Assembly (NCBI GenBank): GCA_947461175.1
Contig: CANHIY010000009.1
Coordinates: 1 to 43,826 of the forward strand
Source of the DNA: Bacteriovoracaceae bacterium
Lineage (GTDB): Bacteria > Bdellovibrionota > Bacteriovoracia > Bacteriovoracales > Bacteriovoracaceae
DNA: 43,826 nucleotides
Direction: 5' to 3'
The notes beneath the pieces were generated by a model. The model saw only the letters and a list, made by a program, of their open reading frames with translations, searched no databases and was not told the origin of the DNA. The position numbers and the translations under genes are program-made. This document shows positions 2,299-30,623 of this stretch, piece after piece. Positions within the stretch are counted from its first letter, which is position 1. Every line of letters starts with the position of its first letter.

Positions 2299-2745
2299 AT
2301 GGTGTTAAATTTTGTTTTGATGGCAATTGTGATTGGCATCCTTATGCCCGTACAAGCAGGACTTAATGCTGAACTTACTCGTTATCTAAAGCATCCCCAC
2401 CTGGGTGCATTTCTTTCTTTGTTCATCGGTTCGATGATTATTTCTTTGATGGTTATTTTCAACGGAAGATTCAATGAAATTAAAAGAATACCAGAGACAC
2501 CACCCTATCTTTTTTTGGGAGGGGTTTTAGGGGCGATTTTTGTCAGTTCTTCCCTTTATTTGATCCCGAAAATGGGGGCTACGGCCTTGATTTGTTCATT
2601 TATTACTGGTCAATTGATTGGATCAGTCATAATCGATCATTTTGGCCTCATGGGTCTTACCCCCTATCCTTTAAATTTAAACCGAATTCTTGGTATTTTT
2701 CTTCTTTTCTCTGGCCTTATGCTGGTGGTAAAAAAATCAGTATGA
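2299..2745 (+). CDS. YdcZ-type DMT family membrane protein (DUF606)
   Basis: A 148-residue protein with four to five hydrophobic helices. It opens with a stretch containing MPVQAGLNAEL, characteristic of the YdcZ/DUF606 branch of the drug/metabolite transporter superfamily, whose members are half-size and act as dimers. An SD-like GAGG (in ACTGAGGTATAAACT) lies 8 nt before the ATG. Its stop overlaps the start of the ABC ATPase gene by 4 nt (ATGA), so the two are translationally coupled. No substrate is predictable. It is the third consecutive small-molecule transporter in this operon. Confidence 0.82.
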   Translation: MVLNFVLMAIVIGILMPVQAGLNAELTRYLKHPHLGAFLSLFIGSMIISLMVIFNGRFNEIKRIPETPPYLFLGGVLGAIFVSSSLYLIPKMGATALICSFITGQLIGSVIIDHFGLMGLTPYPLNLNRILGIFLLFSGLMLVVKKSV

Positions 2746-3719
2746 TTCAGGCAGAAAACTTAAATTACAAGTATGATCACCGTGCAATTGCAGGCATCCA
2801 TTCCTTATCCCTTAAGGTTAAGGAGGGGGAAGTCTTAGGAATAATTGGCCCAAATGGAAGTGGAAAGACAACACTTTTAAAGCTTTTGTCCGGTCAAATT
2901 CTTCCCCACTCTGGAAGCATAAAAATTGATGGTAAAATTTCAATTTTTTCAGAAAACCAATTTACATCCCAAATAAATGTACAGAAATTTCTTCTGGAAA
3001 ACATGACGTTAGACATTGATGATGAAAAAAAAATCCTCCTCATCAGAGACCTGGCCGACACTTTTGAATTTACTTTTCAACTAAGACAAAACCTAGAAGA
3101 ACTCTCTTCCGGACAGAGACAAAAAGTCCTTCTCGCCAAAGTGCTACTTAATAGACCACAGGTTCTTTTCATGGATGAACCTTTCTCTCATCTTGATCCT
3201 TTCACAAGAGGCGACATACTTAAAAGTCTTTTTAAGTACATCCGACAGCAAAACATAACAGTCATTTGGATCACCCATGATTTAGATGAGGTCCTTAAAT
3301 TTTCAGATCAATTGGCCCTCCTGAACTTCGGTCGGATGGAGCAAATAGCTGAATCAGAACAATTTATTCAGAAGCCTAAAAATCTTTTTGTGGCCCAGTT
3401 TATTGGTTATAGGAATTTTTTCCACATCAAATTTCATGAGGAAAAATGGACTTCTCCATGGGGTATGCTTCATTTTCCTCCTTTAGAAAAAGAAGATGGT
3501 ATCCTTGTCGTACCTGATGACGCTTGGACGATTGATCCTGATGGAATTGTCTTTAAAGTTATAGATAGGTATGCTGGGAAACAATGTATTCACTACGAAC
3601 TAGAATCAGGTCCTCATAAAATCTTCATGACTCAAGGTCCAGAATTGGCATGTCAGGAAGTAGGATCGGAAATGTCCCTGAGACCCTTTATAAGGTCGTG
3701 TTTTGTCATCAAGCTTTGA
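2742..3719 (+). CDS. ABC transporter ATP-binding protein with TOBE-like tail
   Basis: A 325-residue ATPase. Walker A is GPNGSGKTT, the ABC signature is LSSGQRQK, Walker B is VLFMDEP and the H-loop is WITHDL. After the nucleotide-binding domain (about residues 1-230) there is a roughly 90-residue extension with alternating hydrophobic strands, resembling the TOBE regulatory domain of PotA/FbpC-type importers. The ATG at 2742 was chosen over an upstream in-frame start at 2592 because ABC homology begins at MIQAENLNYKYDH and the ATG couples to the ydcZ stop. No permease or binding protein is adjacent, so the partner must lie elsewhere. Import of a polyamine, iron or anion is only a guess from the TOBE tail. 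Confidence 0.86.
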   Translation: MIQAENLNYKYDHRAIAGIHSLSLKVKEGEVLGIIGPNGSGKTTLLKLLSGQILPHSGSIKIDGKISIFSENQFTSQINVQKFLLENMTLDIDDEKKILLIRDLADTFEFTFQLRQNLEELSSGQRQKVLLAKVLLNRPQVLFMDEPFSHLDPFTRGDILKSLFKYIRQQNITVIWITHDLDEVLKFSDQLALLNFGRMEQIAESEQFIQKPKNLFVAQFIGYRNFFHIKFHEEKWTSPWGMLHFPPLEKEDGILVVPDDAWTIDPDGIVFKVIDRYAGKQCIHYELESGPHKIFMTQGPELACQEVGSEMSLRPFIRSCFVIKL

Positions 3720-29719: not shown

Positions 29720-29748
29720 TTGTGATACGGAAAAATTACGCATAAAAT
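29720..29748 (+). promoter_or_regulatory. Predicted sigma70-type promoter of lexA
   Basis: TTGTGA (29720-29725) and TAAAAT (29743-29748) are separated by exactly 17 nt, giving a good -35/-10 pair. Transcription would begin near 29755, about 30 nt before the lexA ATG. The first TACG-N7-TACG repeat lies entirely in the spacer between the two boxes. Confidence 0.6.
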
Positions 29749-29773
29749 CTAAGTCAAATACGGAAAAAATACG
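29726..29773 (+). promoter_or_regulatory. Putative LexA operator pair, TACG-N7-TACG direct repeats
   Basis: Two near-identical 16-mers, ATACGGAAAAATTACG (29725-29740) and ATACGGAAAAAATACG (29758-29773), differ at one base. Each contains two TACG half-sites 11 bp apart, one helical turn. The two units are offset by 33 bp, three turns, placing all four half-sites on one DNA face. One unit occupies the promoter spacer and the other lies just downstream of the start point, ideal for autorepression. Alphaproteobacterial LexA also uses a direct repeat with N7 spacing (GTTC-N7-GTTC). Confidence 0.5.
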
Positions 29774-29783
29774 GAGACCTTAA

Positions 29784-30377
29784 ATGGCATTAACAAAAAA
29801 GCAAAAAGAAGTCTTAGATTTCATCACTGAATATGTAAGGGAAAATGGGTACTCCCCTACACAGAAAGAAATTCAACATCATTTTGGCTTTAAATCTCTT
29901 GGCTCTGTACAGGACTATATAAAATATCTTACCTCCGGCGGTCATTTAAACAATGACTCTCACTCAGTTCGAGGCTTAACACCCTCTAGCGTTCAACAAA
30001 ACTCAGAAGAAATACCTCTTTTGGGAAATATTGCAGCAGGAACGCCTATTGAGACCATTGAAAACTCAGAAATGATCAGCGTGCCGGTACACATGCTTGG
30101 GAAAGGAAAATACTATGCCCTCAAAGTTAAAGGGGAATCTATGATTGATGAAGGAATCTTGAATGGAGATATTGCCATCATCAAACATCAAACCCAGGCA
30201 GAAAATGGTCAGATTGTCGTTGCAGTTGTTGATAATGAGACAACACTCAAAAAATATTTCAAAAAATCTAAACAAATTGAACTCCATCCTTCTAATAAAA
30301 CTATGAAGCCCATCATTGTACGGGACAAAGACTGCGAAATCAGAGGATTGATGGTTGGACTTATAAGAACTTACTAA
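29784..30377 (+). CDS. lexA: LexA repressor
   Basis: A 197-residue SOS repressor and self-cleaving peptidase. The N-terminal winged helix (residues 1-65) opens with LTKKQKEVLDFI and includes YSPTQKEIQHHFGFKSLGSV as the recognition region. The cleavage site is A85-G86 in NIAAGTPIE. The catalytic serine S119 is in VKGESMIDEGI and the lysine K156 is in ETTLKKYF. All residues for RecA-stimulated autocleavage are present. The recognition helix (FGFKSLGSVQDY) differs from the E. coli type, fitting a different operator. The promoter carries paired direct repeats that probably mediate autoregulation. Confidence 0.95.
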   Translation: MALTKKQKEVLDFITEYVRENGYSPTQKEIQHHFGFKSLGSVQDYIKYLTSGGHLNNDSHSVRGLTPSSVQQNSEEIPLLGNIAAGTPIETIENSEMISVPVHMLGKGKYYALKVKGESMIDEGILNGDIAIIKHQTQAENGQIVVAVVDNETTLKKYFKKSKQIELHPSNKTMKPIIVRDKDCEIRGLMVGLIRTY

Positions 30378-30425: not shown

Positions 30426-30623
30426 ATGGAAACTTATGCCTATTTTTGTGAATCTGAAAACTTTATCTGCGAAAAAGAAATTTTCTTAAAAGTTAAATAC
30501 CAAATCCAAAATCGATATGAAATTGATGAAAAGCTTGCCAGTGAAATGGCCTGGGATTTAATAGAAGTTTTGACAGCTATTGATTGCAACTTAGGAGTTT
30601 TTGAGAAATTTTTTCTACATTAA
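30426..30623 (+). CDS. Small hypothetical protein downstream of lexA, 65 aa
   Basis: A 65-residue acidic, helical protein (METYAYFCESENFICEKEIFLKV...). ATG 30426 is chosen over ATG 30420 because GGAGG at 30415-30419 abuts the first ATG but lies 6 nt from the second. It begins about 48 nt after lexA on the same strand with no obvious terminator between, so it may be SOS co-regulated. No family recognised; two cysteines near the N-terminus may be coincidental. Confidence 0.6.
   Translation: METYAYFCESENFICEKEIFLKVKYQIQNRYEIDEKLASEMAWDLIEVLTAIDCNLGVFEKFFLH

Follow-up and report, generated by a model that had tools for sequence, protein, structure and literature searches.

The LexA boxes closest to the one considered here are the direct repeat GTTC-N7-GTTC of Alphaproteobacteria and the motif TTAC-N3-GTAA of Bdellovibrio (PMC8565304, PMC3323433), both of which had been named correctly in the initial annotation of this locus. 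A wider direct repeat, TTACACATATTTTWTACATA, is the LexA motif of Balneolaeota, with binding shown by EMSA (PMC7739468). For the LexA sites of Bacteriovoracaceae, no treatment was found in the literature searched, which consisted of open-licence papers, so that a description elsewhere is possible. In Bdellovibrio bacteriovorus the canonical SOS genes are said, in the title of Campoy et al. 2005, not to be under LexA repression.

The window, i.e., the whole stretch of 43.8 kb that was analysed, contains a lexA gene, and the product is, judged by its sequence, a canonical LexA that has both the cleavage site and the catalytic residues. It scored 190.9 bits against TIGR00498 (cutoff 110.95) and possesses the domains LexA_DNA_bind (PF01726) and Peptidase_S24 (PF00717); alignment to solved LexA chains predicted self-cleavage at Ala85-Gly86 and Ser119 and Lys156 as catalytic residues. 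The features of the gene and its promoter are as follows, with the basis of each assignment in parentheses.

29720..29725, + strand: -35 hexamer TTGTGA of the lexA promoter (sequence, promoter scan, relatives)
29726..29742, + strand: putative operator 1, TACGGAAAAATTACGCA, with TACG-N7-TACG as the -35/-10 spacer; copy 1 of the repeat, TACGGAAAAATTACG, at 29726-29740
29743..29748, + strand: -10 hexamer TAAAAT (sequence, promoter scan; TATACT-like in relatives)
29759..29775, + strand: putative operator 2, TACGGAAAAAATACGGA, just 3' of the inferred transcription start; copy 2 of the repeat, TACGGAAAAAATACG, at 29759-29773
29773..29776, + strand: probable Shine-Dalgarno sequence GGAG (sequence, inferred)
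29784..30377, + strand: lexA, 197 aa (TIGR00498, domains, alignment)
29895..29927, + strand: recognition-helix region SLGSVQDYIKY of LexA (alignment)
29910-29912, + strand: codon of Gln43, which aligns with E. coli residue 44

The sequence bore out the initial description of the promoter. The two copies of the repeat start 33 bp apart, the 16-mers taken from one base upstream differ at a single position, and each copy holds two TACG half-sites separated by seven bases. Copy 1, together with the following CA, fits exactly between TTGTGA and TAAAAT as their 17-bp spacer, and copy 2 lies past the expected start, the second half-site of operator 2 overlapping the GGAG ribosome-binding site. These are the only two matches to TACG-N7-TACG on either strand of the window, where 0.06 would be expected, and none of 100 shuffles of the window reached two. 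A promoter scan recovered the same lexA promoter, although shuffled sequence contained promoter-like sites in similar number.

In the lexA promoters of 24 near relatives, none of the four half-sites varies. The hexamers are well kept and the TTG of the -35 element is invariant or nearly so (TTGAAC in most of the window's genus, TTGACT in marine genera), whereas sequence farther upstream varies, as does that separating the operators. Operator 2 begins 23-26 bp 5' of the ATG in these relatives. The suggestion that all half-sites share one face of the helix holds roughly, 11 bp corresponding to 1.05 and 33 bp to 3.1 turns, but not strictly: the separation of the two operators ranges from 28 to 43 bp among the 24 relatives (31-32 bp in 18 of them). 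Exact phasing was therefore dropped; it is a rough phasing that is conserved.

Directly 3' of lexA the window contains a short ORF of about 65 aa (30427-30623), which begins METYAYFCESENFICEKEIF. In many genera of Bacteriovoracaceae a gene for a Y-family polymerase (DinB-like, 22-26% identical to UmuC) adjoins lexA downstream or divergently, e.g., at G002:C1:1636246-1637639 and G043:C2:174467-175914; the lexA operator may thus control the polymerase gene as well.

The initial annotation had proposed to look for the repeat in lexA promoters of relatives, where its absence would have spoken against a LexA box, and upstream of recA and imuAB/dnaE2. Those relatives that bear a name in public records are Bacteriovoracaceae. 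Within this family 80 of the 81 distinct regions upstream of lexA contain TACG-N7-TACG, which was also present before recA in 26 of 30 genomes and before umuDC in 27 of 30; related operators before imuA or dnaE2 were encountered in other families (see below). Among all 256 four-letter half-sites at N7 in Bacteriovoracaceae promoters TACG ranked first, and in a scan of spacings from 0 to 20 N7 stood far above every other value. A consensus built from 53 sites before recA and umuDC reads TTACGSAWAANTTACGSA, in which TTACGSA is repeated directly with a period of 11 bp; the form found in marine genera is TTGACTTACGCAAAACTTACGCA. When seven other genomes (26 Mb) were searched with ACTTACGCNNNNCTTACGC, allowing at most one mismatch, 21 matches were obtained versus 0 for the reversed control, and these precede lexA (7), recA (7), umuDC (6) and uvrA (1). 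Core SOS genes thus share a conserved promoter element with lexA itself, and this was taken as the mark of an operator. The idea of a new LexA box gains strong support from these sequence comparisons, and the two repeats are, with high confidence, operators for the LexA whose gene follows them.

The position of the repeats could also suggest an intrinsic promoter or sigma-factor element, or an RNA feature of the 5' leader, since operator 1 occupies the promoter spacer and operator 2 overlaps the ribosome-binding site. This explanation appears hardly credible, because the repeat is restricted to SOS genes (21 of 21 sites in the seven genomes), because no Rfam family was matched by the repeat region, and because either strand is used: 15 genomes have the recA site in reverse and 11 in forward orientation, and both orientations also occur before umuDC, as expected of a DNA operator.

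A site before recN was present in only 6 of 30 genomes, confined to the window's genus and a sister genus, and recN was rejected as a family-wide target. In some marine genomes (L332, L341, around position 1501) the umuDC operator is situated between umuD and a divergent gene, whose product starts MCFSVHID or MCFSVQID and resembles the SOS-associated peptidase (SRAP/YedK); a search of NCBIfam with this gene returned no match.

In the genome to which the window belongs (3.0 Mb), the bare pattern TACG-N7-TACG is not enriched, with 23 matches versus 32 for a control read backwards. Enrichment by count was dropped in favour of location, which is the telling feature: matches precede lexA (2), recA (1), recN (2) and umuDC (1), and with 23 matches in 3.0 Mb as background, the 200-bp promoters of recA, recN and umuDC would all three contain one by chance with a probability of about 4e-9. 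Given the lack of genome-wide enrichment for the bare pattern, flanking positions must matter. The tightened pattern TACGKANNNNWTACG, whose extra positions were taken from the SOS sites of this genome themselves, occurs exactly at seven places, namely the six sites before lexA, recA, recN and umuDC and one before a sugar-epimerase-like gene, which may be a chance match. Sites with one mismatch were mostly within coding sequence and provided no convincing extra target. On contig 118 (L369, 4650-5110) repeats of 11 and 22 bp form arrays in which TACG/CGTA recurs every 11 bp; these arrays adjoin a ParA-like gene and another gene, maybe a replication initiator, and have the appearance of plasmid iterons, not of LexA sites. 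Contig 125 (L368) of the same genome encodes a second S24-type repressor, a 217-aa XRE-S24 protein (2371-3024, minus strand), possibly a prophage-type or a second damage-responsive regulator.

The half-site was compared with the LexA residue aligned to position 44 of E. coli. With half-sites of the TAC type this residue was Gln or Asn in 102 of 104 cases, and with the TTC type it was His in 26 of 27; the exceptions were two rows with His and TACG and one with Gln and GTTCG. The association of Gln or His with the half-site gave p = 5e-24 in Fisher's test, in which the rows are related by descent; on the tree, two independent pairs agreed with the rule, none disagreed and one showed no change. 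As a hypothesis, the residue of the recognition helix would track TAC versus TTC half-sites, the independent switches being too few for proof.

These data bear also on the question of whether another DNA-damage regulator binds the repeats instead of LexA. Non-LexA SOS repressors are used in other phyla (PMC8565304), and the XRE-S24 protein just described would be a candidate. Such an assignment is very unlikely, however: conservation of the site is highest at lexA, as autorepression predicts, the half-site varies with the recognition helix of LexA across the phylum, and the 200 bp before the XRE-S24 gene contain no such repeat.

Related direct repeats, with TTACGC or TTACAC 11 bp apart, were found before lexA in most other families of Bdellovibrionota sampled. 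In the families labelled f8, f12, f14, f18, f19 and f20 the lexA promoters carry TTACGCATAACTTACGCAT or close variants, in f21 and f28 repeats like TTACACATAACTTACACAT, and in Bdellovibrionaceae-like genomes (f6) TACGGGAAATGTACGG or GTTCGAGAAATGTTCG; no such direct repeat was seen in the lexA promoters of f3, f7 and f17. Outside Bacteriovoracaceae, one genome has a related operator before an imuA-imuB pair, and a second genome has one before dnaE2. The sequence of Bdellovibrio-type lexA promoters is TTGACTTACATATAATTTACACTGTAA, in which the published TTAC-N3-GTAA ends, and overlaps, a TTAC-N7-TTAC repeat. A second site resembling TTAC-N7-TTAC-N3-GTAA lies before an imuA-like gene in Bdellovibrio-type genomes (L395-L397, around position 1501).

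It could be argued from the published motif, which does occur in lexA promoters of the Bdellovibrio type, that the palindrome TTAC-N3-GTAA is the functional unit and the direct repeat incidental. This is very improbable. The lexA promoter of the window lacks the palindrome. Inverted TACG/CGTA pairs occur in few Bacteriovoracaceae promoters, mostly with a spacing of N9 and TACGTA as the half-site, against a near-universal N7 direct repeat, and the Bdellovibrio promoters themselves contain TTAC-N7-TTAC.

Beyond the phylum, LexA proteins with about 39-45% identity to that of the window carry TTCG-N7-TTCG before lexA. Such loci (L099, L101, L103, L105, L109, L110, L114-L118, L124) were seen in Riflebacteria, Patescibacteria and Gemmatimonadetes, and the repeat often overlaps the promoter. 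The ancestral LexA operator of Bdellovibrionota could perhaps be a direct repeat whose TTAC(G/A)-type half-sites lie 11 bp apart, the Bdellovibrio palindrome a derived piece of an array which still holds TTAC-N7-TTAC, and the residue at E. coli position 44 (Gln/Asn versus His) the determinant, among LexA proteins that read direct repeats, of whether the half-site is TAC or TTC; taken jointly, these proposals are plausible, with the balance leaning slightly against them.

Altogether, the repeats are best read as operators for autorepression and for a small SOS regulon. Beyond the motif, its conservation and its targets, we infer binding, repression, induction, cleavage and dimer geometry from sequence patterns and from knowledge of LexA. 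Each operator would consist of two TTACG(C/G)A half-sites in direct repeat, 11 bp or about one helical turn apart, on which a LexA dimer would set its two winged-helix domains on same-facing half-sites, as does alphaproteobacterial LexA on GTTC-N7-GTTC. Since operator 1 is located between -35 and -10, bound LexA would exclude RNA polymerase, and operator 2 at the start site should strengthen autorepression. Upon DNA damage, RecA filaments would induce self-cleavage of LexA, and lexA, recA, recN and umuDC would be freed.

The box recurs before the main SOS genes across a family of mostly predatory bacteria. Bdellovibrio bacteriovorus provides the only characterised LexA that was found for the phylum, and there the canonical SOS genes are reported not to be repressed; for a related predatory lineage the present evidence predicts an ordinary small SOS regulon (lexA, recA, umuDC; uvrA or recN in some). 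With an exact operator, the damage response and induced mutagenesis can be tested in predators that have been proposed as living antibiotics, and the natural LexA variants are material for studies of direct-repeat recognition by the LexA dimer and of SOS-box evolution.

Compared with the known systems, the operator of Bacteriovoracaceae would appear to be a new half-site on the known N7 direct-repeat layout, as far as the literature was searched. The initial view that the motif matches neither known box exactly was therefore right as to the half-site and the missing TTAC-N3-GTAA, but the N7 layout is that of Alphaproteobacteria. The box of Caulobacter and Rhizobium shares the direct repeat, the 7-bp spacer, the 11-bp period and the control of SOS genes, and differs in its half-site, GTTC instead of TTACG(C/G)A, with TACG in 80 of 81 lexA promoters of Bacteriovoracaceae. 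The TTCG-N7-TTCG systems of Riflebacteria, Patescibacteria and Gemmatimonadetes have the same layout, often overlapping the promoter, but their half-site is TTCG, not TACG. In sampled LexA proteins with TTCG or GTTC-type sites the recognition-helix position is His, whereas the window type has Gln (or Asn). The Balneolaeota motif has in common a direct repeat with a TAC-containing half-site, but belongs to another phylum and has other flanks and about 13 bp between the TAC cores. Bdellovibrio bacteriovorus, of the same phylum, shares the TTAC core, and lexA promoters of the Bdellovibrio type also contain TTAC-N7-TTAC; its box was described as a palindrome, whereas that of Bacteriovoracaceae is a direct repeat, and the presence of the box before recA and umuDC appears to set Bacteriovoracaceae apart from Bdellovibrio as characterised in the 2005 title.
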